Part shown: piece after piece, positions 25,201 through 60,795 of the stretch
Position numbering within the stretch: the stretch's first letter is position 1
Layout: the number at the start of each line of letters is the position of its first letter
Assembly (NCBI RefSeq): GCF_026210795.1
Contig: NC_089446.1
Span: forward strand, 806,001-870,000
DNA length: 64,000 nucleotides
DNA from: Rhizophagus irregularis
Taxonomy: Eukaryota > Glomeromycota > Glomeromycetes > Glomerales > Glomeraceae
Reading direction: 5' to 3'
Notes under the pieces: generated by a model
What the model was told of the DNA's origin: nothing
The model's database searches: none
What the model saw: only the letters and a program-made list of their open reading frames with translations
Made by a program: the position numbers and the translations under genes

Positions 25201-25744
25201 CCATCTCAAATAAGTAAATTTTTTTTTCAAATAATCTCTTAAATTCCCTTCATTTGCATATTCTAATACCAAAATATAATAATCAGAATCTATTAATTTT
25301 AAATATAAATAAGTTAGATTGAACTGTATAAAATAAACTTATTTTTTTTTAAAAAAAAAATCTTGATATAAACCTTTTGTTATTCCCAGAAAACGATTGA
25401 TTTTTGGATGATCTTCAATCTCGCGAAGGAGTTTTAACTAAAAAAAAAAAAATGATATAGTAAAATTGATTATTTATATGCACATACCAAGCTAATATAC
25501 TCTATAAAATAATTGCGATTTCCACCTCTTTGACAAAATCATCATTAGATTCATTAAGTTCATTTGAATTTTTACTTATTATAATTTTCAATGCGACCAA
25601 TCCTATATTAGCCAAATTTGCTTTACTCACTACACCGAAACCTCCTCTACCAATTTCGACAACCTGACTAAATTCATCATATTTAAAATAACGAATATAC
25701 TTATTCTTTATCTTTTCTTCAATCCATTCTTTTACCGAAGTCAT
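22208..25744 (-). pseudogene. TKL kinase-Hsp70 fusion gene, interrupted by a 587-bp element
   Basis: Eight minus-strand exons: 25526-25744, 25374-25437, 25120-25289, 24501-25029, 23403-24406, 23099-23279, 22957-23019, 22208-22881. Without the insert at 23493-24079 and its TTAA duplicate the exons sum to 771 codons in one frame. Exons 1-4 encode a complete TKL kinase (GRGGFGVV, VALK, HRDLHSKN, DFG, EPQ, KSDIYSLGVLLWE). Exon 4 ends one base into a codon at a GTAAGT donor; exon 5 continues in frame into VVGLEFGLTYSGFSYCH, the first loop of an Hsp70-like ATPase domain, and exons 6-8 finish it (VLLVIAVPAEF, VGDFSESKYLQ, QPTAAISRGAVIYGL). The insert breaks exon 5. The exon 1 donor is GTGGAA, weaker than GTAGAA in the intact sister. 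If intron 4 is retained, a kinase-only protein ends shortly after 24501. Confidence 0.75.
23493..24079. mobile_element. 587-bp TIR element, target TTAA, in Hsp70 exon
   Basis: Ends begin TTGCCGATCCGCCTAAAA and are inverted at the right with two mismatches over about 48 bp. TTAA stands on both sides (23489-23492 and 24080-24083); the sister gene at about 37610 has the empty site. TTAA targeting suits piggyBac-type elements, but the repeat is palindromic at the junction, so a TA duplication (Tc1/mariner) is also possible. Inside are two GCGCGCG tracts and no transposase; the 101-codon plus-strand ORF at 23905 spans the right arm and is spurious. Confidence 0.8.
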
Positions 25745-26064
25745 TTTGTCGATTAAAATTACAATAGAAAATTTATTTAATTAAAGAAAAAAATTTTCTC
25801 AGAGATATGAATTATAAGAACATTACAAATAAGCCCGTTAACACAATGCATTGGAAAAAAAAATTCAATAATTATGCATGTTGCCAATCCACTACTACAT
25901 ATACTGCATTGATCAACAGTTAATTTAAACCCCTAGTTTCAATATACTATATTTGTAAATCAATTACCATACGGGAATAGTTAGAATAGATCGGGTTATC
26001 CGTTTAGGTTTTAGCTTACTTTGCAGAAACCTTGAATTTTTGCGAGGTATCATTGCGTCATTAC

Positions 26065-36408: not shown

Positions 36409-39273
36409 TCAAGGTAATCCATAAATTACTGCTCCACGTGAAATTGCTACTGTAGGTTGAAAAGGAACTAAAATATTAAATACTCGATGACTAAATTCTT
36501 GTTTAATTCTTTTTTGTAAATATTTTGATTCACAGAAATCTCCAACTAAAAAAATTGCAGAAAAAGTCTCATGAACATTATTATCTAACAGCGTTTTTAT
36601 CAGACTGAGATTGCGTCGAATAACAGGTTCAAATATTGATTTCATAGTTAAAAAATAAATTTCAATAATCCAATCGAGATCTTCGAATTTTTTCCTGATA
36701 TTATCATCTTTAATGTATCGTTCAATATGTTCAATTTTCAAATCATATATTACAAAGTCTTTTTCATCTCCTGTAAAAGAAATTTTACAATAGTTACAGA
36801 ATTGTTGAATCAAATATTGCATTTGTCCATTATCTCTAAGCAAATCCATATGTACATCTCCTAGTATCCCTCGTAAATATTCAATCAACTCTGTTTCAAT
36901 ATAAGCATGTTCACCACGAGTACTTCCATATCTTTCAGTTGTTTCACCTAATTGATCATTATTTAATACTTTGCGAGTTGTTAAATCTATGAAACGATCA
37001 CTGCGACAGCCAAGTACCATAAAATTAGCTAATAAATAAATGAAGTTAATTATACTATTTTTTTTTTTTTTGAGGACAAACTTATTTCAAACATACTTCC
37101 TGCCTGCGCAAGATTCTGTTTTTTGAGATTTTCCATGCAATATACTGCAACAGCTTCAGCTGAAGATAGTTAAACACCTCAATTAGAAATTCGAAGAAAT
37201 AATTATAATATTAGTTAAAAATTGTGAAGTTTCTTACATTCTGTAATAAATTGTAAATTTGTTGAACATTCTTCTTTGATCAATCCTGCATTAAATGTAC
37301 ATATTCTCATAATTGCTTTTGCGTTTTCAGAAAATTCTGCAGGAACGGCAATAACTAGAAGAACATTCTTAAAGTAATCAAACGATGGCCAACGTTCTTT
37401 AATAGTATCTTTAATTACCTTAAAGTTTTTTAATATATATAACATAATAGAGGAATTATTGATTAGAATATTTAAAACGGTTTTAAACTTTTCAAGTTCA
37501 AAAGATTGCTAAAATTGATATTATATACCTCCCCAATTTCTCTAAGATAATCGGTAATAGCCTTTTTATAATCAACTGGAAGCTTTGGTTTATATTTTTC
37601 TGGTATATCGCCTAAATGTAATAAGAACTTTTCTACACGTCCATTTTCTTCGTTGTTTTGTCTTCTATTTCGACGATTTTGTTTTTTCATCATAGCTGGG
37701 GCTCCCCATAATTTTACATTATTATATTCGTCATCATATTGAAGAACTGTATTAGTTTTTAATTGATGATATTCACCACCGTGCCATATATCATTTGAAC
37801 ACACATTTCCTTTTTCCTTAACATGGCAATAAGAAAATCCGGAGTAGGTTAATCCAAATTCTAATCCAACCACAATTCGGATATTATTTTCTTCATAATT
37901 CTTTTGGTGCTTTTCATTTTGCCTCGAATTTTGATTATCTTATTAATTAAAATTTGGTAATGGTTAGTGTTGAAAATTTGTAAATAAAACATCATTATTA
38001 TTAATCAATACTAATTAATATATTAAACTTACTTCTTGAATTTAGATTCAGGCGATCAGAAGTGATATAGAAGTCGTCAATATCACTAAATTTCGAATTA
38101 CTATTGTTATCAACATTGTGTATATGAGGTTGTGAAGATTGTAGATAAAAAGTATTCTCGGTATTTAATTGATTTAAAATCTCATATACTTTTTCAATAT
38201 CAGGTCTTGATTTTGGTTCGTCATTCCAACATTCTTGATAAAGTTTTTGATACTTTGGAGGTGTACCATCAATTGGATCTTCTCTATCACCATTTTTAAT
38301 GTAATAGTCAAGTAAATCTCGTGAACAATCAGAAAAAGGAATACGACCACTCGAAATTTCCCATAATAAAACACCTAAACTATAAATATCGGATTTTTTA
38401 TCTTTTTTATACTTTTTATTCTTAAAACATTGTGGTTCAATATATTCAATCATCCCTTGTCTATTACCCACTGAATTAGTTGTTATTTCTGCCAACTTTT
38501 TAGATAATCCAAAATCTGCGATTAATAATTTTCCATTATTCACTAATATATTTTTTGAGTGCTATAAAATGGTTATCAATATGTCAGTATCTATTAAAAA
38601 TATCATTAAAAACAAAGCATTATGAAAAAAAAAAATAATAATCTTCTACCAAGTCTCTATGGATTATTTCTTTAGAATGTATAAATTTCAATCCACCAGT
38701 AATATCCAATGCCATTTGCATTTTATCATTCCATCTCAAATAAGTAAATTTTTTTTTCAAATAATCTCTTAAATTCCCTTCATTTGCATATTCTAATACC
38801 AAAATATAATAATCAGAATCTATTAATTTTAAATATAAATAAGTTAGATTGAACTGTATAAAATAAACTTATTTTTTTTAAAAAAAAAATCTTGATATAA
38901 ACCTTTTGTTATTCCCAGAAAACGATTGATTTTTGGATGATCTTCAATCTCGCGAAGGAGTTTTAACTAAAAAAAAAAAAATGATATAGTAAAATTGATT
39001 ATTTATATGCACATACCATGCTAATATACTCTATAAAATAATTGCGATTTCTACCTCTTTGACAAAATCATCATTAGATTCATTAAGTTCATTTGAATTT
39101 TTACTTATTATAATTTTCAATGCGACCAATCCTATATTAGCCAAATTTGCTTTACTCACTACACCGAAACCTCCTCTACCAATTTCGACAACCTGACTAA
39201 ATTCATCATATTTAAAATAACGAATATACTTATTCTTTATCTTTTCTTCAATCCATTCTTTTACCGAAGTCAT
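36409..39273 (-). CDS. TKL kinase-Hsp70 fusion protein, apparently intact (751 aa)
   Basis: Eight minus-strand exons: 39055-39273, 38903-38966, 38650-38819, 38033-38561, 37529-37938, 37238-37418, 37097-37159, 36409-37028; every intron is GT-AG and lengths sum to 752 codons. Residues 1-327 are a TKL kinase: glycine loop 32-38, VALK lysine 53, HRD 148-150, Asn155, DFG 167-169, then EPQ and SDIYSLGVLLWE. Residues about 350-751 are an Hsp70-like ATPase domain: VVGLEFGLTYSG, LWGAPA, VLLVIAVPAEFSENAK, VGDFCESKYLQ, GAVIYGLP. The phosphate-2 loop is degenerate (VLGCRSDRFIDL) and there is no substrate-binding domain. A 16-nt loss relative to the sister shortens the C-terminus to YGLP. Known families: Pkinase/TKL and Hsp70 ATPase. 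That one transcript spans both is inferred from phase, shared layout in two copies, and the lack of a gene start between them; two separate genes remain possible if intron 4 is not spliced. Confidence 0.75.
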
Positions 39274-39559
39274 TTTATCGATTAAAGTTATAATAGAAAA
39301 TTTATTTAATTAAAGAAAAAATTTTTTCCGAGTTATGAATTCTAAGAACATTGCAAATAAGACCGTTAACACAATGCGTTGGAAAAAAAAAAATTTCAAT
39401 AATTATGCATGTTGCCAATCCACTACTACATATACTGCATTGATCAACAGTTAATTTAAACCCCTAGTTTCAATATACTATATTTGTAAATCAATTACAT
39501 ACGGGAATAGTTAGAATAGATCGGGTTATCCGTTTAGGTTTTAGCTTAGTTTTCTGTTT

Positions 39560-43362: not shown

Positions 43363-45317
43363 TTGTATCTGGATACTATCCGGATAAACAAATCTGCCTC
43401 CGTTAAGAATTTTCAAATTTGGTTATCTGATAAAATATTTTTTACAAACCTGAATGACTAACAGTCATTAGTGAGTTTGTATCCAGATAAAATCTGTGAA
43501 CCTAATATCCAAAATTTGATGATAGTATCCTAATTTGTAAATATATTTAAGAAAATAAATTTTTTTCATAAACATTAGTTATATAAATTGTGTTCAAGAT
43601 AAATTAACAAAGTATATTTATTTTTAAAAAAATTATACCCCAGAACAGGATAAATTTGCTCATTTTATTACTTTATAATTCATGTAGTGAAATATTGGAT
43701 ATCTAATATTACTTTTGAATTTAGCCCAGATTCCAGATATCTGATTTTGAAGTTATCTGTTAAATCCAGATAAACGGATAATTTATCTGGCATTCCGGAT
43801 AATATCCAGATAGCTGCACTATCTGATATCCGATGGATATCAAGATAATTCCGGCCAGAATTATTTTCGTAACAATGATCATTTCCTTTTTGGGACGTCT
43901 AAAGCGGAGTAGTCCCGTGATATTTGACATTATATGATTGGATAAATTTTCTTATAAACTAAAATTAATATGAACGTATTTTAGCCCGCTCTGCAAATTT
44001 ATTTGGTGAAAAAAAAGTGAATTTTAAATATTATTTTGACCTTACACATGAATAAACTTTGCTAATCATATTAAATATCCAAAAAATGGTTAGATTAATT
44101 TTAATAAAATGGCTACATTTTTCTCTCACTAATCACTTGAGCATTAAACTTGGTTTTTCTCACTCAAGTGATTGTAGAGAGCCTTCCTAAGGATTCTTTT
44201 AAAACTTGAATGAACCTTTAACTCCTAAGATAATTTTACTTTTGTAATACTTTTTTTCCCACTGAGTTCCTAAAAGTTGTAACAGTTACATACTGGGGTG
44301 GCTGGACTTTGAACTCTGTACTAGTATGAAGTTTTCCTATTGGTTTCTTTATTATTAGAAGCATTGTAAAAGTCTCTCTATGAAGTACAAGTCAAGTTGA
44401 AGTAGAGGTAATCATCTAGAAAGTGGGCTTTTGTTTATTATTATCAGTTGTTATTTAAGGTGTTGAAGTAGTAGATAAAGGCTTGGTGTTTATTACTTTC
44501 TTTACTCAGTTTTTCCCTTAAGGGTTTTCTGAATATTATAACTTTTTTTTTTGTTTTTTAGTTTTTCTTTTCTCCCAAAATTTCAGCATTTTTACTCTTA
44601 GTTTTCTTTTAAGGAGCATATTAGAATGTTGATCATTTGGACTGGAGGTTCTTTACTAAAAATTGCTAATTTTTTTATTTAGACCTAAATACAATGGCTT
44701 TCAAAATATATCAAAATATATTTAAGGTATTTTTGAAATTAAAATATTAAAATAATATCAAAGTTAATAGTATTATATTATAATAATAAAATAATAATAA
44801 AAGCAATAAAAATTTTGTGATATTATTTTGAGTTATTTTTAGACCTAGGTACAATACAATTATAAAATAATAATAAAAGTATAATAAAAATATTTTGATG
44901 TATCAAATGTATTTTAGTAGTATTTTAAAATTATTACAAAATCATTTCAAAAAATTGGCCATTTTTAGTAAAGTTTGGTGTTACTTAATTTTTTTAGATT
45001 TATATAATATAAAATCAGTCAATTTGGGAAAGCTGATTGGGATTGGTAAATTTTAAAGTTTTTAATTTTTACTAATTCAAGTTGATCAGCAAAAGAATTA
45101 TTAAAATTAAAAATATTAGAAAACTTAAAAGTATAATTGGTTAGATATGATGTATCTACTTAGAATTAGGTGGGTTATCACAGCCATAATACTTATAAAA
45201 AATTCTCATTCTAGAACATACTAATTCTTTATACAATAGCATATCTATTAGTAATTAAAGTTTTAAATAAGAAGTATCAAATCTAGTTATTTATATGCCA
45301 TTTTACTGATAGGTGGA
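43363..45317. other. No supported gene; ATCCAGATA-rich patch at the start
   Basis: In 43363-43860, words such as TATCCAGATAA, ATCCGGATAA and their complements recur, suggesting a decayed foldback element. The rest, including a slightly G-richer stretch at 44280-44540, contains no recognisable coding sequence. Confidence 0.35.
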
Positions 45318-45775
45318 TACTAGTCAAAATAGTCCAATTCAGTCAAATTTCATACAGGCAAATTTGGCCCAAATTATGGCTGAAATCCAGCCAAAATTAA
45401 CCAAATATTATTACTAAAATTCTTTTTGCATATGTTGCAGTTCAGACTGCCACTTGCCTAGAATTTAGCTTAAATTTTCAGCCAAAATTCAGTTAACATT
45501 TGGAATAATTTCAGATAGCAAATTTTGGCCGAATGTTAACTGAATTTATATTGCATAATTCATATTAAATTTCAATTTACATTTATTTATACTGAATTAC
45601 TAATATTCAGCCATAACTTATTTTATTATTTTATTTAATATTCGCAAAAATCACAACTTTATTTATAAATGCATATTACAAATAAATATTACTAATTTAC
45701 AATTCCACAATTACATAATTCATGTATTCGTATATATATACTTACGAATTTTAATCTTTTGGAAACCTACTGAAA

Positions 45776-47610
45776 CTATAAAAAAAAAGAACGGTTAGTA
45801 ACCATTCCATAATATTAAAAAAAAGCAAAAAAACCAAGATTCTACTTACGAATCTTTGGTTTTTTTCTGTTCATCGGAACCCACCTAAAACACCAAACCT
45901 ATAAAAAAGTAAAAAAAAGAGCAGTTATTAATAACCGTTCATAATAATATTAAAAAAAAATAAAAAATAAACCAAGATTTGTACTTATGAATTTTAGTTC
46001 CACTTTTTCTAAAGATCCCAAAACCTACAAAAAGAAAAAACAGTTATTAGTAAACCTAAAGCTCTGAATGGTTCAGTTCAGTTCCATTTTTCAGTTTTTT
46101 TCTGAATCCGTTTTGCGCAATAACTCACCATCCAGTAATCGTAAAAACCCGATCTATAGCTCGTTGGAATCGTCTCATCAAGACGGTTCGAATGGTACCA
46201 AAGTCATCTTTCTAGCATCGATAGATGGCGAGTTATTTTTTGAAAAATTGGCAAAATTAACTTGCCATCTATCGATGCTAGAAAGATGATTTTGGTCCCA
46301 TTCAAACCGTCTCGATGAGATGATACTAACGAGCTATAGTTCAGGTTTCTACGATTACTGGATGGTGAGTTATTGCACAACACAGATTCTGACTAATCAG
46401 AAAAAAACTGAAAAATGGAACTGAACTGAACCGTTCAGAGCTTTAAGTAAACCGTTTATAGTAATAAAAAATAAAAATAAAAAATAAAAAAAAGAACCAA
46501 GATTCGTACTTACTTACAAATCTTGGTTTTTCGTTGTTCTTTGGAAGCCCACTGAACCTAAAAAAATAAATAAGAACGGTTATCAGTAACCATTCGTTAA
46601 TATTATAAAAATAAAAATAAAAATAAAACCAAGATTCATACTTATGAATCTTGGTTTTTTCTATTCTTCAGAAGATACTGACCTAAAAAAAAAGAAAAAG
46701 AACAGTTAGAAACTGTTTGTAATAATAAACAAAAATAAAAAAATAAAGTTTCGTTCTTTGAAAGTCTACTAAACTTAAAAAATAAAGAAAGGAACGGTTA
46801 TTAATAACCGTTCGTAATAAAGAAAAAACAAAAAAAAAAATATAAAGATTTGTACTTACTAATCTTTATCTTTGGGTTTTCATTCTTCAGAAGCCTACCC
46901 AAACCTAAAAAATAAAAAAAGGAATGGTTATTAGTAACCGTTCATTAATAAAATTAAAAAAAACAAAAAAATTAAAACTAAGATTCATATATACTTACAA
47001 ATCTTAGATTTTTCATTTTTTGAAATTCGGAAGCCCTACCTGAGACGCTAAACCTATAAAAAATAAAAGAAAAAGAACGGTTAATAACCGTTCATAATAT
47101 TAAAAAAAATAAACCAAATTCTGAACTTATGAAACTTGGTTTTTCCATTTTCAGAAGTCACCTAAACGGTCAAACCTAAAAAAAAAAGAAAAAAGAACGG
47201 TTAGTAACTGTTTATATTAAAAAAAAATAAAAAAAAATCTTTAAAGTATTCATACTTATGAATTTTTGGAGTTTCTGTACTTCAGAAGTCCACCCGAAAG
47301 CTGAACCTATAAAAAAAAAAAAAACAGTTGGTATTAACCATTCATATTAAAAAAAAAATAAAAAAAAATCTCCAAAGAATTCGTACTTACAAATCTTTGG
47401 AGTTTCTGTACTTCAAAAGCCCACCTGAATGGCCAAACCTATAAAAAAAGAAAAAAAAATCAGTTAGTAACCGTTCATATTAAAAAAAAATAAAATAAAC
47501 TCCAAAGAATTTGTACTTATGAATCTTTGGAGTTTCTGTACTTTGGAAACCCACCCGAAAGCTGAACCTATAAAAAAAAAAAAAAAAGTAAAAAAAAGTG
47601 AAAGGAAAAA
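45776..47610 (-). repeat. ~115-130-bp repeat array with micro-exon-like units, about 12 units
   Basis: On the minus strand each unit runs: T-rich tract ending in ATAG or TTAG, then about 36-50 nt (GGTTYGGGTGGGCTTC…), then a palindromic AGATTCGTAAGTACGAATCT whose centre is a GTAAGT donor-like site, then an A/T tract and a second palindrome GAACGGTTA…TAACCGTTC. Units here are more diverged than in the second copy. The array is interrupted by the 389-bp MITE at 46057. ORFs reading through it are by-products. Confidence 0.75.
46057..46445. mobile_element. hAT-type foldback MITE, 8-bp TSD AGTAAACC
   Basis: Long inverted arms starting TAAAGCTCTGAAYGGTTCAG; nearly the whole 389 bp is palindromic. 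AGTAAACC is duplicated at 46049-46056 and 46446-46453. The corresponding unit of the second array (about 56825) has the empty site. Related copy at 50469-50859. The 73-codon ORF inside is spurious. Confidence 0.9.
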
Positions 47611-47665
47611 CAAGGAAGGGGAACGAAGGAAGGGAAAGGAAAGGGAAAGAAAAAAAATTAAAAAA
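47590..47665. repeat. Purine tract (G/A-rich)
   Basis: A run of almost only G and A near the right end of the CACTA-like element; a longer version lies at 59625-59755 in the second copy, so it belongs to the element. Confidence 0.6.
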
Positions 47666-47835
47666 GTTTAAAAAAGGATGTATAAGATGATCCTTTTTTA
47701 AACTTTTAATACATATAATGTGTAATGCATAACATTTGATTAACATAATTCAATAAATCAACCATAAATCATATATGTCAAAATTTGGCTGATTTTTAAT
47801 AATTTCTGAAATTTGGCTGATTTCGACCAGTGGGA

Positions 47836-48189
47836 ATAACCCTGTAGAAATTGTAAAAAATTTAGCCTCTTACTAATTTTTTTTGTTTTTTATTTTTATA
47901 ATAGTAATATAATTCATTAAAAAATATTTTAATAATCGTACCTTTAAAAATAAATATAACTTGTTTAATTATTTATTTGTATATATACAAATTTATTATT
48001 GTCTGGAGTGAAGCGAAGGACTATATATGTTCATGAACCTTAATGACATATTTGGATCACATGGCAAAATCCGTTTGTCCACACGCGTTATTTCTGATTG
48101 GTCCACACAGAGTGTGTCATTGAAATTTTGTGCTACATCAAAAAATAAACAAGTGTTTATGATAAACTAGATATCTTTTTTTTGATTCT
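47836..48189. other. Short intergenic stretch, nothing recognised
   Basis: A less AT-rich patch near 48050-48130 (GTTATTTCTGATTGGTCCAC) stands out but matches nothing I know. Confidence 0.3.
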
Positions 48190-49060
48190 TTTTTTAGGTT
48201 TTGGCGGACTGGAATAGTGAGTATATTTTTTTCTTATTTGGTTTCAAAGAAATATCAGATATTTCTGACGGATTATTTCTTATTTTTTTTTCTAAGGTTT
48301 TTGGATTTCTTGTACATACCAGACTTTAAAGGTAAATTAGAAAGAGGTGGGTTTTTTTATTTGTTTGACTTTAAAGAAACGTTTCTAACATTTCATTTTT
48401 TTTTTTTTCTAGGGACACTGGATTTTTTGTACACGCCAGACTTTAAAGGTAAAATAGAGAAGAGGGTTTTTTTTATTTATTTGACTTTAAAGAAATGTTT
48501 CTAACGTTTCATTTCCTATTTCTTTTCCTAAGGTTTTTGGATTTCTTGTACATACCGGACTTTAAAGGTAAATTAGAAAGAGGTGGGTTTTTTTATTTGT
48601 TTGACTTTAAAGAAACGTTTCTAACGTTTCATTTTTTATTTTTTTTTCTAGGGACACTGGATTTTTTGTACACGCCAGACTTTAAAGGTAAAATAGAGAA
48701 GAGGGTTTTTTTTATTTATTTGACTTTAAAGAAACATTTCTAACGTTTCATTTCCTATTTCTTTTCCTAAGGTTTTTGGATTTCTTATACATACTGGACT
48801 TTAAAGGTAAATTAGAAAGAGGTGGGTTTTTTTATTTGTTTGACTTTAAAGAAACGTTTCTAACGTTTCATTTTTTATTTTTTTTTCTAGGGACACTGGA
48901 TTTTTTGTACATGCCAGACTTTAAAGGTAAATAAGAAAGAGGGACTTTTCTTATTTGTTTGAGTTTAAAGAAACATTTCTAACGTTTCATTTCTTGTTTT
49001 TTTCTAGAGACGCCAGGATTTTGTACACACTGGACTTTTAAAGGTAAATTGGGAAAAGCA
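48190..49060 (+). repeat. ~119-bp tandem array with micro-exon-like units, seven units plus a diverged first one
   Basis: Unit borders recur at about 48322, 48440, 48560, 48680, 48799, 48919 and 49034 (ACTTTAAAGGTAAA). Two unit types alternate (GGACACTGGATTTTTTGTAC and GGTTTTTGGATTTCTTGTAC), giving a 238-bp higher-order repeat. In each, TTTTTTCTAG or TTTCCTAAG precedes 35-36 nt that end in AAAG|GTAAA, followed by a T-rich tract and a GAAACGTTTC palindrome. The long ORFs reading TLDFLYTPDFKG and FLDFLYIPDFKG result from this repetition. Confidence 0.8.
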
Positions 49061-50460
49061 GATTTTTTATTTGTTTGATACTTTTTCGATAGGATTTTTT
49101 AAATAAATGTTTTTTTTGAATTTTCAACTTTAAAGAGATGTTCCTAATGTTTTAACTTTATTTTTTTCGTAGAAACATAATTTAAACTTAATCATTTTTT
49201 ATCTTGTTTAGCTAATCTTGAAAAGTACAAAAGATAGTGTTTAAAAAAAAAATAAATAAATAAAAATTTTTGTACAAAATTTTTCGTTCTGGATGTACAA
49301 CGGTTTCTGTTTCCTAGTTATTACTAATAAAATATATATAGATTATTAAAAAAAAGTCAAATAATTCAAAACAATATTTAAAACCTCATTTTGTATTCTA
49401 AGTAAACTTGCAAGTAAACTAAAATGTATCTACTATAAATTTATTTAAAGGTTACTATATATATAATTATATTAAAAAGTTATATTTTAAAAAAATAGTT
49501 TTTTTCTTTAAAATCATATGAATTATTTCATTTTAAATGTCCCTTTCTTTTTAAGTAATAGCTATCTTGCAAAAAATTAAACTTTTAAAATTTTCTTTAG
49601 AGAATTGTATAATCCAAATTCTTAAAAGAAATTTTATTTGTTAATTATAAAAATGTGTTGCAATATTTTCAACTTCATAATGGTATTTGATCAAATCTGA
49701 TTTGGATCTGCTTGAATTTAATCTGATCTGATCTGATTTGAGTAAATTGCTGATCTGATTCGATTTAATCTGAATTAGATCATATTTTTTTAATTCAAAT
49801 CAAATCATAGATTATAAAATATATGATTCAATCTATCAAATTTGCAGATATGAATCAAATCAGATTTTTTTTGAAATACTAGTCAGTATAGAACCCTGAA
49901 CAATATATATAAATATAGGTTTATTTGATAACATAATTTTAAAATAGTCAAATATAATTATGTGTAGCAGAGTATTAAATTATTATTATAGACAGATATA
50001 TATTTGTGTAGCAGGATAGATTTTTTTAATATATATATATAATATAATATATATTTTACATTTTTCACATTAAAAAAATCTAATAAAATATGTATAAAGT
50101 GACTCAACATTAAAAAATTGGTTCTCATTTGTGAACTCAAATTTTAAGGTTGGCGGTGGTAATTTTATTTAAAAATTTCATAGTAAAATGGTAATCCAAA
50201 ATTTAAAAATTTCTTAAAATTTTTTTCTCTTTAAGAAACCTGCTAATTATAATACTAGGCATATAAAATTTTTTCTGTAAAATTTCACAAAACTAGGTCA
50301 GCGGATATAAGAACCAATTTTTTAATGTTATGTTGCCTAAACATGTTTAGATTAAGTTAATTGTATATGTAATATAAGGACCATTTTTAGACATGATCGT
50401 GTAATATGTTTTTGATAAAACAAATACGTATCTGCATAATATTTAAAATATAAATTATAT
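49061..50460. other. AT-rich stretch, no gene
   Basis: Contains a short patch of repeated TGATCTGATTYGA words at 49690-49830. Nothing coding is supported. Confidence 0.35.
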
Positions 50461-50468
50461 ATGTGTTC

Positions 50469-50859
50469 TAAAACTCTGAATGGTTCAGTTCAGTTCTATT
50501 TTTCAGTTCTTTTCTGATTGGTTAAAATCTATTTTGCATAATAACTCGCCATCCAGTGATCATAAAAATCCAATCAATAGCTCATTGAAATCATCTTGTC
50601 AAATGGTTCAAATGGTACTAAAACCATCCTTCTAGTATCAATAGATGGTGAGTTATTTTTTAAAAAATTGGAAAAATTAACTCTTTATTTATCAATGCTA
50701 GAAAGATGATTTTAATACCATTCGAACTGTCTCAACGAGTAGATTCCAACAAGCTATTGATCAGGTTTCTATGATCACTAGATAGCAAATTATTGTGCAA
50801 AATGGATTCTGACCAATTAAAAAAAAACTGAAAAATGGAACTGAACTGTTCAGAGCTTT
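50469..50859. mobile_element. hAT-type foldback MITE, second copy
   Basis: Same family as 46057-46445 (AACTCTGAATGGTTCAGTTC at the left, inverted at the right; shared CTATTGAT and CATCCAGT internal blocks). Flanking 8-mers ATGTGTTC and ACATGTTC differ at two positions, as in an older insertion. Confidence 0.75.
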
Positions 50860-50867
50860 AACATGTT

Positions 50868-51497
50868 CATGTAACATTTAAAAAATATATATTTAAAATG
50901 AGAACAACAGGTGGGTGGGAAGTGTTTTTCTGTTTTTTTTATAATTTTACACTAATTTTTGTAATAATCAATAAAAGTTATTTTATTTTTACTTAGAAAA
51001 TTTTTTAATTTAAAAATAAAAATTTCGCATATTGATAGCATTACAAAAACATGAATAAATCCATAAATATCTATTCAATTATAATATAAATTTATATATA
51101 AGTAGATTCAAACCTGCTAAACAACTTTACTTAAGAAGGTTTTGGATATTTACTTTGACTAAAATGCCTAAATTACGCTCTGAAGTCACAGAATAGATAT
51201 ATGAAAATATTTATAAGAAACATTTATAAGTTATAATATTACAAAAAAATAATAATAGCTTTATCCATGTATTATTTCAAAAATTTTGTTTTTTTGTTTT
51301 TTTTTATATACATATTTTATAAAAAAAATTATATATATATATATCATAAAATAAGTTGCTTAGCAGTGTAAAAAATTTATGCATTAGATAAAAGTTTGCT
51401 AAATAGACATGAAAAATATTTGCTTATTAACCTTAGTAAATTTTGAATTTTTCATCTAACCTATATATATATTATTCAGGATCCTGTCAGAACTATA
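50868..51497. other. AT-rich stretch, no gene
   Basis: Nothing recognisable; includes a (TA)n run near 51328-51345. Confidence 0.35.
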
Positions 51498-51499
51498 TA

Positions 51500-52066
51500 C
51501 AGTCAACTCTCAATATACCAAAGTCGCCATTCAAGACTAAAACTTCGGTATATAGTAATCTTCAGTATTTCAAATTTTTTTATATACCGAAGTTTATATA
51601 ATTTTTTTAGAAAACTTCATTATATTAAGATTAAAATCATGTGACTTTATTATACTATGAAAATCATTACATATTTTACGTTTAACAAATTTTACAAATT
51701 ACTTGTTTCTAATCCAATTATCTAACGTTCATATAGTATCTTTTAAAGCAGCTAAAGCAGCTAAATGTTTAACTTCAAAGTAACGTTAATATTGAAAAAT
51801 AAAAATGAGAGAATAAAGTTGCGAAAATTATGCAAATTAAACATCATTTGATCATATGGTTTTGATCTTCAGTATAACAAACTTTTTTTTATTATATACT
51901 ATTATAAACGGTAAAAATGAAAACTTTAGTATAATGTTATATAAAATTTTATAGTAAAATCAGTATATCAAAAGATTTTAATTATTAATGAAAATGGTAA
52001 TACAAAAATCTTCAGTATATAGTGATTTTCAGTATATCGTGACTTTGGTATATCGAGAGTATACTG
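51500..52066. mobile_element. pogo/Tigger-like non-autonomous element
   Basis: Ends CAGTCAACTCTCAATATACC and, inverted, CAGTATACTCTCGATATACC, flanked by TA (51498-51499, 52067-52068). This terminal form is that of pogo-type Tc1/mariner elements. 567 bp, no transposase. A single related end (AAGAGTTGACTATA) lies at 53145-53160, possibly from a second, decayed copy. Confidence 0.8.
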
Positions 52067-52079
52067 TATTTATAATTAA

Positions 52080-52575
52080 ATTAATAGTTAAAAAATATTT
52101 TACAACATTTTTTATTATTAAAATAATTAAAAACTGTTGTGAAATGGATTTTTTTTGTTAAATTGAAATAAAAACATTAAATTGAAATAAAAAATATTTT
52201 GCAATATTTTTTTATTAAAACAACTAAAAACTGTTGTAAAATGATTTTTTATTTGTTAAATTAAAATAAAAAAATATTTAACAACATTTTTTATTTAAAA
52301 TTATTAAAAACTGTTATAAAATAGTTTTTTATTCATTAAAATAAAAAAATATTTAACAACATTTTTTATTTAAAATTATTAAAAACTGTTATAAAATAGT
52401 TTTTTATTCATTAAATTGAAATAAAGAAATGTTTTGCAACATTTTTTTATAAAAACAACTAAAAACTATTGTAAAACAGTTTTTTATTTGTTAAATTAGA
52501 AATAAAAAATGTTTTGCAATGTTTTTTATTAAAATAATTAAAAACTATTGCGAAATAGTTTTTTTATTCATTATT
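52080..52575. repeat. AT-rich minisatellite, ~100-120-bp period
   Basis: Four to five diverged units containing ACAACATTTTTTATT, TTAAAAACTGTTRTRAAATAG and TTTTTTATTCATTAAA. Two adjacent units near 52270-52400 are nearly identical. It directly follows the pogo-like element. Confidence 0.7.
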
Positions 52576-54189
52576 CACATTTTCAAAATAGTATATATAA
52601 TATCGATCATTTGATAAAAAAATTTCCCTAAAAAATCACAAAATTTTTAAATTTAACAAGTATAAACTTTCTTTCTTTGCTGATTTTCCTGATTTTCCAA
52701 TAGTACTTGTATTTGTAAGCATTTTTACAGCTTTTATTTGAATTTTAAGCTGAGTTATTATACACTATTTGAAACTTCTTTCACTCAAAGTTCATGATTT
52801 TTACAAATTATTTAACTTTAAAAGAGTTTTTACACTACTTTATCCAAATGGCTAATACGTACAGTAAATATATTATATATATAAGATTAGCCAAATTTAG
52901 GCCAAAAATACGCAAACTAATTTTTTACATATAAAAATTTTGATAAAAAATACACAATTTTGATGACTTAACTATAGTAGTAAAATATTATTTTCAGTTA
53001 TTTATAACGTCTTGCAGCAATTCTAAATACTTGAGAAGAAATTACTCATTTTCAGTGAAAATAATAGTAAACTTAAAAAGTTACTTGTATTTGAATTTTA
53101 TGCAAAAGAAATCATTTGAGGCATAATAGCAAAAACTTTGTTATATTAAGAGTTGACTATATGTGCAAAAAAAGTATATAATTTTGTGTTTTTAATGGAA
53201 AAGTCATATGAAAATATTGATATTGCATTAGGATTAGAGTTTGGAATTATAGATGTGAATATTTTAGTAAAATTATCTTTAGTGCTATTAGATCATAAAA
53301 AAATAAGTAAATCTAATAATTGTATTATCTGTTGTACCTCTAGTTTAAAAATAAGATAATTTAATAAGTAAATCTCTCTGTTAATAATAAAATACATAAT
53401 TAATAGAAAATTACAATTTCTTTTATCCAGCATTATATTGCAGTAAGTTTTATATGCCTTCCATCATCAACAAAATATGATGCATTATGCTAGCTGCATT
53501 TGTATTGGTCCCTTAATTCATGAATTATGCACTCTTCTTCTTGTAAAATAATTGAAAAATTATCCAATTTTGGGACCATATTTTTTTTTTATATAATTTG
53601 ATGTTCTTATTTTCTGATTCTTCAGAATTAGACATTTTTAGAAAGGTAAATATATAAGCATGCATAATAATTCAAAGTTTATCTAATACAATAAATAACC
53701 TTACCTTTCGCTTTTACTTTTTTTTCTTCTTCAAAGAAACTAAAATAGCCATATTTTTCTTTTTATTTAACAATTTCTTGTAATTAGAGATAAATTTCTT
53801 ATAATCTTGTAAATTAACTAACTGTGCTTCAACTCCTGTTGTAACTGTAGATATCAAATTTAATTATATAGAATAGATAAATAATATACCAAACAAAAGA
53901 TCATATGATTGAAAGCCACGTAATTAGATAAATAATTTGCCGAAAGGATAAACATTTGGGAAGTAGAATAATCTACATGATGTAACATTTGTTGAATAAT
54001 TAATAAAGATCAGATAGATTAATTAAGGAGTCGATCAATTATGATATGATAACCAGTTTACTGAACTCGTCAATAGAAATAAATTCCAATATGATAACCA
54101 ATTTGTCAAATTTATTAATAGGAATAATTAAGAGAAGTAATTATGAGTTATAAAAAATAGATTATAAGTTGGAATAAGTATTACTTATC
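52576..54189. other. AT-rich stretch, no supported gene
   Basis: The 68-codon ORF at 53153 begins inside the decayed pogo-type end and shows no motif. Nothing else recognised. Confidence 0.35.
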
Positions 54190-54300
54190 TCCTGGCTAAT
54201 TAGAAATAAGTAAAATTTTACTAGAATTGGATAAATGATCAGCCTTTGGCTAATCATGTTCTGATTCTTAGTAAAATTTTACTATTTCAATTAGCCAGGA
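54190..54300. mobile_element. 111-bp foldback element
   Basis: TCCTGGCTAATTAGAAATAA is inverted at the right (ATTTCAATTAGCCAGGA), with TAAAATTTTACTA at the inner edge of each arm. No clear target duplication. Confidence 0.5.
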
Positions 54301-54695
54301 AATAATTGATTTATTCCCTACCATTTACACAATAGTAAGTGTTTTATAGTATATCATGAGTAAAATATAGTATGTTGAATCTTATTTTTCTTTTACTTGT
54401 TTTTTTTTCATTTTAAAAGATTTTAAAAAAATAATAAAATTTTAAAAAACTTCAGAACTATTATTATTAATAATATTGAAATTACAAATAAATTAAAAGA
54501 AAGTTGTTCTCATTTGGAAAACGCAAATCTTTCCGAATTACTCAAATTTTCAAATCAGTCCATTATAGTATAATCAATAGTTAATTTTACTGCAAAATTT
54601 CCTAGAAACGAATAAATAAATACATATAAAATTTGCTACCCAATAGGTATAACTACATTTGCATAATCATGTAAATGGTGCTAATCAGGGGATAA
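54301..54695. other. Intergenic, nothing recognised
   Basis: AT-rich; no coding sequence or repeat border supported. Confidence 0.35.
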
Positions 54696-54976
54696 AGCCG
54701 CACCAATTCAATGTTTCGTTTAACATAACCCCCCCCCTGTTTTTGGATTTTTTATGTAAAAAAAATACATGTAATTTAGGCCAGAATTAGACAAATCTTT
54801 AAGTTTTAGCCGGAATTATCATCCAAAATTTTTGCTCAATCTTTTGGTCAAAATTTTGGCTAAAATTAATGGTAATTCTGGCCATGTATTTTATTTTATG
54901 TATTATTTTTTGTTTCCCCCCTCCTAGATTGGGACCCCTATGTTATGTTAAACAAAGAATTGGCTTGGAGCGGCCT
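54696..54976. mobile_element. Harbinger-like MITE, TSD TAA
   Basis: Inverted ends about 33 bp long (AGCCGCACCAATTCAATG… against AGGCCGCTCCAAGCCAATTC), each running into TTTAACATAAC. TAA flanks both sides (54693-54695, 54977-54979). A C9 tract follows the left arm. The 281-bp interior holds GGCCAGAATTA-like words and no gene. Confidence 0.7.
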
Positions 54977-55254
54977 TAAATTGATAATTATAAAACTATT
55001 TCTTTACAAAATTATTTTTTTACAATAGAATATTTCTTTATGATGTAATATTTAAGAGATCATTTTCTTTTACAGAATATTAAATTAGAAAACATATTTT
55101 TTAGGATACTTAAAAAAGGTCAAATTTTATGGATATAAATATGTGGGGAATTCAAGGTGAAATTCACAGTTCAAAGTAAACATGAGGACCGAAACCTCTA
55201 TGAGGATTTCCAAAAGTTTTGGGTTTCAGAATATATGAATCGAAACCTCATCTG

Positions 55255-55390
55255 AAACCCTAAACTATTTCTGAAACTCGAAATAAAACCCAAAATCTGA
55301 AACTAGTTTTGGTTATTCTGAAACTAATCCCGATACTCTGAAACTAATTCTGATTTCCAAAACTAATTCCGATTTCCAAAACTCTTTTTT
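55255..55390. repeat. Short tandem repeat, ~20-bp unit
   Basis: Diverged copies of CTGAAACTAATTCCGATT follow one another; a related longer patch with GAAACCTC begins near 55185. Confidence 0.6.
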
Positions 55391-56547
55391 ATAAATTGAT
55401 TGGATCAATTGGATTATCAATTCGTCATTATAGCTAAAAAAAGAGATTAATCATATTTGATAATCTTTTTTTTATAAGAATCAAGTCTTAAAAAAATGAC
55501 AGATTGTACACCTTCAAATTCAAAAAAAATAAGACTGCAATTTATGGCGGACGTCCAAAAAACCTATATAGAGATTTTTTGAACAAGAAGAGGAGATAGA
55601 TAAAGGGCATTATATTGCAATATGTTTGGCTTTAGGACTTTCTGACCTGAAAAGACAACAGCTATGGAAAAACATATAATTAGTAATTGTTTAAAAGTAG
55701 ACCATTTAATTCGTGAGGCCATCATATATATGGTAAAAGCACGTGAACATAAAATCTCTTCTGGTACTAATGTTAAACGCCAAAATAATGATCAAACTAT
55801 TTTGGAAGATTTCTATGAAAATTCAGATTCAGTAAGGAACGAAAAGAAGATATTGATACAGCACTTATTAAGGCATTTGTATGTTGTGGTTTACCGTGGC
55901 ATCTAGTTGAACATCCATTTATCATTGAATTATTTAAGCAACTTAGATCAAATTATAGTCTACCAGATAGGAAGATACTTGCTAATACTATGTTAATATA
56001 GGAAATCCTACGCGTTAATGTAAAGCCATATAGGTTGCTTGAAGAAGAGAGTAATTTAACACTAGGCAAGTATATTTATGCAAAAGTTATACAAAACTTA
56101 AAAATTCTAATATTAGAATTTTTTTTTGAACTTTAACACTTGTCAAAATAGTCCAAATCAGCCAAAATTCAACCAGCCGATTTTAGGCTAATTTATGGTC
56201 TAATGCTGGTCGAACCTTAGCTGATTTTTTGGCTGCAGTTCGCTGCCACTTGCTTAAAGTTCGGCTTAAAATTTCGGCCAAAATTCAGTTAACATTCAGA
56301 ACAATTTCAGATAGCAAATTTTGGTGAATAGTTTTCTGAATGTTACTTAATTTATGTTGCAAATTTGTACTAAATTTATTTACTAATATTCAGCCACAAC
56401 TCATTTTATTTAATATTCGCAATAAATCACAGCTTTATTTATAAATGCATATTACAAATAAGTATTACTAATCTACAATTCCACAATCACATAATTCATG
56501 TATTCGTATATACTTACGAATCTTGATCTTTTGGAAACCCACCGAAA

Positions 56548-59500
56548 CTATAAAAAAAGAAAAGAACGGTTAGTAACCGTTCCATAATATTAAAAAAAAG
56601 CAAAAAAACCCAAGATTCTACTTACGAATCTTTGGTTTTTTTCTGTTTATCAGAACCTACCCGAGACACCAAACCTATAAAAAAGAAAAAAAAAGAGCGG
56701 TTATTAATAACCGTTCATAATAATATTAAAAAAAAATAAAAAATAAACCAAGATTCGTAAGTATGAATCTTTGGTTCCACTTTTCTAAAGATCCCGAAAC
56801 CTACAAAAAGAAAAGAACGGTTATTAGTAAACCGTTCGTAGTAATAAAAAATAAAAATAAAAAATAAAAAAAGAACCAAGATTCGTACTTACTTATGAAT
56901 CTTGGTTTTCCGTTGTTTTTCGAAAGCCCACTGAATCTAAAAAAATAAAATAAGAACGGGTTATCAGTAACCGTTCGTTAATATTATAAAAAAAAATAAA
57001 AATAAAACCAAGATTCGTACTATGAATCTTGGTTTTTTCCATTCTTCAGAAGACACCGACCTAAAAAAAAAAGAAAAAGAACAGTTAGAAAATGTTCGTA
57101 ATAATAAACAAAAATAAAAAAATAAAGATTCATACCGAATCTTTAGTTTTTTCCGTTCCTTGGAAAGACGGAATCTACCCGAACCTATAAAAAAAAATCA
57201 AAAGAATGGTTAGTAACCGTTCCATAACATTAAAAAAAAAGATTCGTAAGTATATTACTTACGAATCTTTATCTTTGGGTTTTCGTTCGTTGGAAGCCCA
57301 CCACACCTAAAAAAATAAAGAAAAGAACGGTATTAGTAACCGTTCATTAATAAAATTAAAAAAAAAAGAAAAAATTATAAAGTAAAGATTCGTACTTACG
57401 AATCTTTATCTTTAAGTTTTCGTTCGTCAGAAGCCCACCGCACCTAAAAAATAAAGAAAAAAACGGTTATTAGTAACCATTCGTAATAAAGAAAAAACAA
57501 AAAAAAATTATAAAGTAAAGATTCGTACTTACGAATCTTTATCTTTGGGTTTTCATTTTTCGGAAGCTCACCCGATCCTATAAAAAAAAGAAAGAATGGT
57601 TAGTAAACCATTCGTAATAATAATAAATAAATAAATAAATTAAAGATTCTTACGAATCTTTGGGTTTTTGTTCTTCAGAAGCCCACCCGATCCTATAAAA
57701 AAAAGAAAGAATGGTTAGTAAACCATTCGTAATAATAATAAATAAATAAATAAATTAAAGATTCTTACGAATCTTTGGGTTTTCATTCTTCAGAAGCCCA
57801 CCTGATCCTAAAAAAAAAGAAAGAATGGTTAGTAAACCATTCGTAATAATAATAAATAAATAAATAAATTAAAGATTCTTACGAATCTTTGGGTTTTTGT
57901 TCTTCGGAAGCCCACCCGATCCTAAAAAAAAAGAAAGAATGGTTAGTAAACCATTCGTAATAATAATAAATAAATAAATAAATTAAAGATTCTTACGAAT
58001 CTTTGGGTTTTCATTCTTCGGAAGCCCACCCGATCCTATAAAAAAAAAGAAAGAATGGTTAGTAAACTATTCGTAATAATAATAAATAAATAAATAAATT
58101 AAAGATTCTTACGAATCTTTGGGTTTTCGTTCTTCGGAAGCCCACCCGATCCTAAAAAAAGAAAAGAACGGTTATTAGTAAACCGTTCATATATTAAAAA
58201 AAAAACAAAAAAATTAAACCAAGATTCGTACTTACTTACGAATCTTGGTTTCTTGGTTTTCCGTTCTTTGGAAGCCCACCAGATCCTAAAAAATAGAAAA
58301 GAACGGTTATTAGTAACCGTTCGTAATATTTTTTTAAAAAAATAAAAAAAAAATCCAAGATTCTTACGAATCTTTGGAATTTTCCCATTCTTCGGAACAC
58401 GGAAGCCCACCCGAACCTATAAAAAATAAAAGAACGGTTATTAGTAATCATTTGTAACATTTTTTTTTAAAAAAAATAAAAAAAAATCCAAGATTCTTAC
58501 GAATCTTGGAATTTTCCCGTTCTTCGGAATACGAAAGCACACCCGAACCAGGGACGATGATTTTTTGCGGCGGTATAAAGTAAATTTTGTGTGTGGTAAA
58601 AGTAAATTTTGTGAAATTTTGTGATTTGGCCAGAATTATGCAAGGTTGGCCAACATTACGATTCATAAATTCTGGCCAAATTTAGTGTCTGCCGGAATTA
58701 TAATAATTTCAAATCCTAAATCAGGCCAAAAACTTGAAAATTATCAACATTTTTATAGCCAAATTTTGTGATTTTCTGTGAAATTCTGTGATCACAAAAA
58801 ATCATCGTCCCTGACCCGAACCTATAAAAAATAAAAGAACGGTTATTAGTAACTGTTCGTAATATTTTTTTTAAAAAAAAATAAAAAAAAAATCCAAGAT
58901 TCTTACGAATCTTGGAATTTTCCCGTTCTTCGGAACACAGAAGCACACCCAAACCTATAAAAAATAAAAGAACGGTTATTAGTAACCGTTCGTAATATTT
59001 TTTTTAAAAAAAATAAAAAAAAATTCAAGATTCTTACGAATCTTAGAATTTTCCCGTTCTTCAGAACATCCGATCCTAAAAAAAGTAAAAAACAGTTATT
59101 AATAACCGTTCATAATATTAAAAATAAACAAAAAAAAAATAACCAAGTTTCGAACTTACGAAACTTGGTTTTTCCATACTTCGGAAGCCCACCCGAACGG
59201 CCGAACCTAAAAAAAATAAAAAAGAACGGTTAGTATTAACCGTTCATATTAAAAATATAAAAAAAAACTCCAAAGAATTCGTACTTACGAATCTTTAGGG
59301 TTTCTATACTTCAGAAGCCCACCCGAACGGCTGAACCTAAAAAAAAAGTAAAAAAAGAACGGTTAGTAACCATTCATATTAAATTAAATTAAAAAAATAA
59401 AAAATAAATAAACCAAGTTTCGTACTTACGAAACTTAGTTTTTCCATACTTCAGAAGCCCACCCGAACGGCCGAACCTAAAAAAAAAAAGTAAAAAAAGA

Positions 59501-59620
59501 ACGGTTAGTAACCGTTCATATTAAAAAAAAATAAAATAAACTCCAAAGAATTCGTACTTACGAATCTTTGGAGTTTCTGTACTTTGGAAGCCCACCCGAA
59601 AGCTGAACCTATAAAAAAAA
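56548..59620 (-). repeat. ~115-130-bp repeat array with micro-exon-like units, about 23 units
   Basis: Same unit as in copy 1. Units at 57590-58140 are nearly identical with a 114-116-bp period. On the minus strand each has TTTTTTTATAG or TTTTTTTAG, then about 39 nt (GATCGGGTGGGCTTCYGAAG… to CCCAAAGATTC), then GTAAG inside the palindrome AAGATTCTTACGAATCTT or AGATTCGTACTTACGAATCT. A second palindrome, GAACGGTTATTAGTAACCGTTC-like, lies in the spacer. Later units are 48-50 nt between the splice-like sites. Small ORFs such as those at 58099-58952 follow from the repetition. Confidence 0.8.
58549..58813. mobile_element. hAT-type MITE, 8-bp TSD ACCCGAAC
   Basis: Perfect 19-bp inverted ends CAGGGACGATGATTTTTTG; ACCCGAAC duplicated at 58541-58548 and 58814-58821. 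Neighbouring array units show the empty site. The interior, with GGCCAGAATTATG and GCCGGAATTATAATAATTT, resembles the 26065-26401 element. Confidence 0.9.
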
Positions 59621-59624
59621 AGTA

Positions 59625-59755
59625 AAAAAAGTGAAAGGGGGAAGGGGAAGGAAGGAAAAGGGAAGGAAGGAAAAGGGGAAGGAAGGAAAAGGGGAAGAAG
59701 GGGAAACAGGGAAGGGGAACGAAGGAAAGGAAAGGGGAGGGGAAGAAAAAAATTA
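59625..59755. repeat. Purine (G/A) tract
   Basis: About 130 bases with almost only G and A on this strand (GGAAGGAAGGAAAAGGGG and similar), at the right edge of the array, as in copy 1. Confidence 0.8.
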
Positions 59756-60795
59756 TTAAAAGTTTAAAAAAGGATGTATAAGATGATCCTTTTTTAAACT
59801 TTTAATATGCGTAATGCGTAACGCGTAATGTTTGATTAACAAAATTAATAAATCGACTATAAATCATATATGTCGAAATTTGGCCGATTTTTAATAATTT
59901 ACGAAATTTGGCCGAAATGTGTGACAGATCAGCCAATTTGTCACATGACCGAAAGTTTTGATTTCGACCAGTGTAATTAAGCCTTGGATGGCTGAACAAG
60001 CCCATCAGGGAAATCTCTCTGGAATTTTATTATTCATTTTGGCAATGGACGGGATATTCTTTAGAAAATTAAAGATTTTTTGGGTAAAAGTCATACTGCT
60101 GAGTTTCTTGCTCAACAAATACAGTTAATTATTGAAGAAATTGGCATCCAAAAATTAGCGGGTATTGTAACAGATGCTGTCATTCTGCACGAAATTTAAT
60201 TTCTGGAAAATTTCCACATATTCTTAACATTTGATGCATAGCGCATTCATTAAATCTTATTACAAAAGATTTGATTAAATACATATTTGCAAAAAAAATT
60301 ATTCAATGGTGTTCAGTTATTGTGACATATTTTAAAAAGTCACATAGGCCTAAAGAACTATTAGAATTAAAAATTTTAGAAAAACAAATTGATGGAAGAG
60401 GATTAAAAACATATTTGAATACAAGATGGACAACTGTTTATGAAATGTTAAATTCAATTTCATGACTGGAATTGTGTCTCAAAGAAGTTGTACAACTTTT
60501 ACTATTTAATTTTTTATTTTATAATAAACAAATTACATTGTTATTAATTTTAATTTTTTTTTTTATTAAATATTCTTATAGGTTATTAATGAAAACTCTA
60601 CTATTATTACAAGTGAGGCAGTCAAAACTATTATTAATTGGAAACGTGGGTTTTTTAATGATGTCTATAATTTATCAAATATCATAAAACCTTGCCGAAT
60701 GTGAGTCGATGACGTTTCGAAGTAAATTTTTTAGCTAAAAAAGACAATATAAATAAAATAAATACAAAATAAAGAAAGGAACGAGTGATATATTG

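Follow-up and report, generated by a model that had tools for sequence, protein, structure and literature searches.

A CACTA/EnSpm-like transposon of Rhizophagus irregularis that holds a tandem array of micro-exon-like units with splice-like signals in palindromes

Transposons of the CACTA/EnSpm (CMC) type have terminal inverted repeats (TIRs) that begin with CACTA or CACTG and are flanked by a 3-bp target site duplication (TSD). The transposon described here, named element A, is like the non-autonomous members of this group in its CACTG ends, its 3-bp duplications (18 of 19 copies) and its presence in multiple copies, but its interior is a 22-unit array with an exon-intron-like organization, and no transposase was found in it. 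Parts of this organization are known from other systems. The micro-exon genes of Schistosoma also have many short exons in series; in the outline given in PMC10526429 they have long introns and encode secreted proteins, whereas the arrays described here have introns with a median length of 84 nt and consist of tandem units, and they differ further in their palindromic signals, in exon lengths that ignore the reading frame and, for one family, in the surrounding transposon. Introners and the fungal introner-like elements are likewise repetitive intron-like sequences tied to TIR transposons, but the insertions summarized in PMC9860276 each form a single intron, while element A holds arrays of intron-like and exon-like blocks. 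The internally symmetrical stwintrons of the Hypoxylaceae are also repetitive, include inverted repeats or palindromes, and make a true intron on one strand only. Those outlined in PMC8469720 carry their inverted repeats, 45-55 nt long, at the ends of the intron and lack a flanking duplication, in contrast to the arrays described here, which have tandem units and in which the palindrome is a separate one with the branch point at its centre. Within the same fungal group, the SP7-like effectors of Rhizophagus are also encoded by tandem-repeat genes, with a conserved intron before the first repeat; an organization of one exon per repeat does not form part of the outline in PMC11333574. An SP7-like effector gene was rejected as the identity of the array because the exon-intron plan sketched for these genes is different (PMC11333574, PMC3886924). 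No publication on such arrays in Glomeromycotina was found among the best matches in the open-access literature searched.

The array inside element A, named array A, is located on the minus strand of the 64-kb stretch of R. irregularis DNA analysed here, which we call the window (Table 1). The initial annotation of this DNA had described an array of about 23 units at 56548-59620 on that strand, and its presence was confirmed, with 22 copies of each of two palindromes. The parsed units consist of a pyrimidine tract ending in AG, the acceptor being TAG, followed by an exon-like block. The length of 39 nt ascribed to this block in the most regular units was exact in five of them, with first bases at 57692-58151, and all blocks measure 30-49 nt. 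A GTAAG donor had been proposed inside palindrome 1; this is correct for 18 of the 22 copies, in which the loop starts with GTAA, and fails for the other four, in which the donor is broken or flipped (GGTAT, ATAGT, ATAAG and the flipped ATACTTAC). Two features go beyond that annotation, namely a branch-point consensus, mostly TACTAAC/T, that on the minus strand forms the middle of palindrome 2, and the transposon that surrounds the array. Most units have the signals in the order donor, branch point, pyrimidine tract and acceptor, so that the intron-like blocks of array A include, ordered and spaced, the GT donor, branch point, pyrimidine tract and AG of a U2-type intron.

Table 1. Location of element A, its arrays and related features in the window.
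Feature	Position	Strand	Description
Element A	56137..59973	.	Dispersed non-autonomous TIR transposon holding array A; borders and ends read across fetched loci
Element A, left TIR	56137..56149	+	CACTTGTCAAAAT in the window copy, CACTGGTCAAAAT in most copies
Element A, right TIR	59961..59973	-	CACTGGTCGAAAT on the minus strand
Target site duplication, left	56134..56136		TAA
Target site duplication, right	59974..59976		TAA
Array A	56518..59608	-	Micro-exon array; exon-like blocks (21 parsed, 30-49 nt) alternating with intron-like blocks
Array A, outer splice-like sites	59609-59610; 56513-56517	-	First acceptor AG; last donor
Palindrome 1, 22 copies	56612..59568	-	AAGATTC..GAATCTT; GTAA right after the left arm in 18
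Palindrome 2, 22 copies	56564..59517	-	GAACGGTT..AACCGTTC; branch-point consensus in the centre
Pyrimidine-rich tract	59640..59740 (approx.)	-	Upstream of the first acceptor; by eye
Nested insertion	58549..58813	.	Splits one array A unit; inverted ends CAGGGACGATG (CAGGGACGATGATTTTTTG), 8-bp duplication ACCCGAAC
Copy 1 of element A	45318..47832	.	Diverged; nested insert at about 46056-46445; borders by eye
Array B	48260..49080	+	Second micro-exon array, outside element A; branch point in GAAACGTT-TCT-AACGTTTC-type palindromes

The nested insertion within array A is presumably a hAT-like element, as judged by its inverted ends and 8-bp duplication. Copy 1, which had been recognized at 45776-47610 as sharing the design of array A, does share it in a more decayed state and extends beyond those limits; it includes 12 palindrome-2 matches, two of them false and located inside the nested insert, and 10 palindrome-1 matches, one of them doubtful. 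The segments 46056-46446 and 50468-50861 are inserts related to each other (identity of 80%, and of 78% in inverted orientation), one of which lies inside copy 1. No Rfam family reached its gathering score within 45000-60200. CT-rich tracts similar to that found upstream of the first acceptor also precede the arrays in loci L051, L069 and L070, as judged by eye.

The borders of element A were defined by BLAST comparison with 20 fetched loci (L001-L020), the left one being found in 19 (query start 56133-56146) and the right one in 18 (query end 59973-59979). The ends are CACTG-type inverted repeats, with CACTGGTC(A/G)AAAT at both ends in most copies read. Matching 3-bp duplications flank 18 of the 19 copies with both ends read, L012 being the exception; this count leaves aside L007, L015 and L019, in which one end only was read, and copy 1, which was unscored. 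The end-to-end length of 18 copies with both ends is 2.2-3.4 kb. The genome includes at least 40 left ends and at least 40 full right ends (40 candidates scored per search). With its CACTG-type TIRs and 3-bp TSD, element A is a non-autonomous CACTA/EnSpm-like element, and it carried the array to this location.

Transposase_21 has at least 155 matches in the genome (150 candidates scored), and three such loci (L039-L041) showed no matching element A-type end within the 3.4 kb fetched. A 2.7-kb relative of element A (L074, 3690-6388) with the CACTAG ends CACTAGTC and CACTAGTT and a GCC duplication on both sides is inserted within a Transposase_21 gene, and its joined flanks are open in one frame. 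A further locus (L075), with a left junction different from that of L074, lies beside another Transposase_21 frame. Copies with ends far apart (L021-L026) were considered as autonomous partners of element A and none was accepted. The insert in L021 includes reverse transcriptase and RNase H frames, and in L025/L026 (C4, about 62-80 kb) a long insert bearing integrase-core and DUF5906 frames interrupts a copy of element A; because of these Pfam frames, both look like other mobile elements inserted in element A. The two frames scanned in L022 matched no Pfam family, and L023 has no clear reading frame.

To score the splice-like signals we used a simple intron model, counting introns and the chains they make, with 200 dinucleotide shuffles as control. 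The comparison with shuffled sequence that the initial annotation had proposed supported the signals: 21 introns were called on the sense strand of array A, up to 14 of them in one chain, against a mean of 3.8 introns and a chain of 1.3 in the shuffles (maxima, 9 and 5), and the antisense strand gave three introns and a longest chain of two. The model called 79 and 85 introns on the two strands of the whole 64 kb, arrays included, and in view of these scattered calls the arrays are distinguished by the density of introns and by their chains, single calls meaning little. Chains of at least five introns were found within the 64 kb in arrays A and B only. The motif TACTAAY is present 18 times on the sense strand of array A and is absent from its antisense strand, with 40 occurrences over both strands of the 56,000 bases outside the arrays. 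Among 424 raw palindrome-2 matches in the fetched copies, TACTAA(C/T) was found in 283 on the sense strand and in none on the antisense strand, and TTAA was found in 63 more.

The same polarity was observed in fetched loci that had been selected for the hairpin and not for TAG. The first AG after the branch hairpin is TAG in 112 of 118 cases in the A loci and in 55 of 62 in other loci, compared with 1 of 118 and 4 of 62 on the antisense strand; the median distance from hairpin to TAG is 24 nt, and pyrimidines make up 90% (A loci) or 84% (others) of it. A donor-type sequence precedes the hairpin in 105 of 118 and 48 of 62 cases, respectively (antisense, 36 of 118 and 28 of 62). The longest chains in 29 A-type loci range from 2 to 17 introns on the better strand and from 0 to 4 on the other, except for L008, which has two copies in opposite orientation and a chain of nine on the other strand. 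The corresponding ranges are 1-10 versus 0-2 in 28 other loci and 1-2 versus 1 in five actin-type loci. Introns in chains of at least three have a median length of 84 nt both in A (5-95%, 74-94 nt) and in the others (57-106 nt).

Array B has exons that alternate between 35 and 36 nt and gave 45 genome matches from 40 scored candidates, a figure that includes the window and repeated hits. The window also includes a tandem array at 5336-7660 with 4.8 copies of a 489-bp unit (86% matches) and a 1.94-kb pair at 24081-26022 and 37613-39552 that is 98.6% identical and can be considered either a recent duplication or a pair of mobile elements.

A search of the genome (147 Mb, 32 contigs) revealed that the palindrome centred on the branch point is widespread. 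The sequence GAAMSGTTWCTAACSKTTC has 377 exact matches and its reversed control has none, and GNNNNGTTWCTAACNNNNC, in which four pairs are free, has 753 matches against 52 for the reversed pattern. Among 100 matches listed for GNNNNGTTWCTAACNNNNC, 60 are perfect at the four free pairs and 80 are so when G-T is allowed, compared with a mean of 21 for shuffled arms. The 37 distinct sequences among the matches listed include 12 perfect ones with nine different arms, for a shuffle mean of 3.5 and with none of 2000 shuffles reaching this number, a figure that is not a strict probability because related sequences are counted. The arms match each other across branch palindromes that differ in arm sequence. 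When two arm types were fixed and the loop was left free, 492 sites were found, each of which matches both strands (control, 3 per strand); the loops of 50 sites listed are WCT in 39, TTT in eight, ATT in two and TAT in one, and in 49 of them the loop is W-Y-T on one strand, as fits a branch point. Neighbouring introns of one array (L067, 603-727) have different, self-consistent branch palindromes, GAAACGTT-TCT-AACGTTTC and GTAACGTT-ACT-AACGTTAC.

As a control, WCTAAY was looked for inside hairpins with 7 of 8 pairs or better. It was found so placed in 5 of 19 cases in array A, where longer loops were uncounted, in 6 of 6 in array B, in one of the 224 cases that lie outside the arrays in the window, and in none of the 82 cases from nine loci with actin or transposase, some of which overlap or are near-identical. 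The actin-type genes are without a branch hairpin, so this structure is not required for splicing in general.

We fetched 38 loci, 32 around pattern matches and six with array B copies, and 33 of them have arrays by the threshold used; the exceptions (L064, L065, L068, L069 and L073) have single or few sites, and in L064, whose site was suspected to lie in a transposase gene, the one frame translated has stops. When whole arrays were clustered by BLAST, 33 of 39 sequences came together, probably because of their T-rich introns, and clustering was done on exons instead. The exons of 32 array loci, of which two lie in the window, fall by similarity into 11 groups, which may be distantly related. 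Arrays without detectable relationship between their exons share the polarity of the splice signals, and the donor palindrome is absent from some of the other arrays, as judged by eye. The suggestion of the initial annotation that the splice-like look could be incidental thus seems not to hold, as donor, branch point, pyrimidine tract and acceptor are ordered, spaced and stranded, and recur with exons that show no detectable relationship.

The explanation that we consider probable, by a modest preference, is that array A is a transposon-borne transcription unit made of tandem micro-exons, probably non-coding, with its splice signals embedded in hairpins, and that it is one of a genome-wide class. 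The unit would comprise about 22 repeats on the minus strand, each with an exon-like block of 30-49 nt and a complete U2-type intron-like block of about 84 nt, in which the branch point and, in the A family, also the donor lie in palindromes that may fold as hairpins in the pre-mRNA. Transcription would most likely start at the right end of element A, with the CT-rich tract at about 59640-59740 as a candidate promoter, and the spliceosome would splice the transcript unit to unit, rendering a repetitive RNA that is non-coding or at least not constrained by frame. The hairpins could tune the access of the U1 and U2 snRNPs to the donor and the branch point, presenting or hiding the latter. In the literature case compared, as far as its description extends, the stems are beside the branch point and not on top of it. 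Folded as RNA, three A units do better than their shuffles (z of -5.1, -3.0 and -3.9), with the donor in palindrome 1 and the branch point in palindrome 2 of the predicted folds; the array B unit shows no such advantage (z of 0.28), yet the branch hairpin forms in its predicted fold.

The strongest competitor, which we hold to be unlikely, is a role of the palindromes in DNA, as hairpins for transposase binding, like subterminal repeats, or for replication or recombination of the CACTA element, the splice-like look being a by-product of sequence bias. It would account for the position of the array in the interior of a CACTA-like element, for palindromes that are perfect in the DNA, and for the spread in length of 18 copies (2.2-3.4 kb), as expected of unstable palindromic arrays. 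It is also consistent with the donor G not being preserved in copies. Among 239 donors from fetched copies of element A that retain the following TAA, the donor CpG had changed 25 times from C to T, which keeps the GT, and 18 times from G to A, which destroys it, and the mirror CpG had done so 23 and 22 times. The copies of element A decay by CpG loss, and there is no sign of selection on the donor after insertion, as expected for dead transposon copies; any constraint must consequently operate at the level of the source copies or of the wider class. The initial annotation had counted GT and AG positions as variable as the rest of the unit as a point against splicing. This variability does exist within copies, where the donor G is lost about as often as its mirror position, but not across arrays, where the signals persist. 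Hairpins for transposase or replication had also been put forward in that annotation. Two observations weaken this alternative: the branch palindrome is found again outside the A family, in arrays with exons that show no detectable relationship to those of A, and a branch-point sequence almost always occupies its centre (the loop is W-Y-T in 49 of the 50 sites listed). The presence of TAG and a pyrimidine tract on one side only also speaks against it.

A second alternative, which appears improbable, is that a CACTA element captured, in the manner of Pack-type elements, a host gene for a repeat protein with one exon per repeat, the copies being decaying pseudogenes. The exon-intron anatomy within a TIR element and the decay through CpG loss would agree with such an origin, as would the regular 39-nt exons, which equal 13 codons and, in the least decayed units, have no stop in any of the three frames. 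On the other hand, exon lengths are out of frame, with remainders 0, 1 and 2 found in 10, 5 and 6 exons of array A in the window, in 119, 63 and 105 of the 287 exons of A-type loci, where the counts are uneven but copies of element A repeat identical units, and in 39, 31 and 32 of the 102 exons of other loci. When the exon-like blocks of the window copy are joined, each of the three frames is interrupted by stops and no open reading frame results, and the only frame of at least 90 amino acids in array A (103 amino acids) crosses exon and intron blocks. In addition, 11 exon groups with one build would imply that capture occurred several times or that the family is a single old one. The spliced repeat proteins envisaged in the initial annotation were rejected on these grounds, as exon lengths ignore the frame and every frame has stops. 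No convincing retro-processed copy of joined exons of either array was found in the genome: one form of the joined array A exons had no match with up to three mismatches, and the joined array B exons had one match with three mismatches, against five for the reversed control.

Splicing of a host transcript into and out of an introner-like insertion, making it tolerated or a source of cassette micro-exons, is very improbable, since, although the sense strand of array A opens with an acceptor (59609) and closes with a donor (56517), neither of which has an outer partner in the element that was recognized by eye, and introners with TIRs and TSDs are known, as outlined in PMC9860276, element A holds about 21 introns in place of a single one with splice sites at or near the ends, its outermost sites lie more than 360 bases inside the ends, and the donor is not kept in copies.

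Returning to the hairpin-embedded micro-exon unit as the preferred explanation, it is conceivable, although we propose it tentatively, that the arrays as a whole form a class of at least hundreds of units that would give rise to spliced, largely non-coding RNAs, share a branch hairpin maintained by paired changes in its arms, and have been spread by transposons. If this is true, the branch hairpin would be a new cis-acting splicing switch common to otherwise different introns. The transposable elements of R. irregularis are two thirds unclassified, and CMC-EnSpm and Plavaka are superfamilies with families upregulated in colonised tissue, according to the summary in PMC11075540; the arrays could account for part of the repeat content of this fungus as a defined class. 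If the arrays are spliced, they would represent a case of transposons bearing ready-made exon-intron arrays, and would offer hundreds of natural variants, paired changes in the arms included, in which RNA structure can be set against branch-point recognition.
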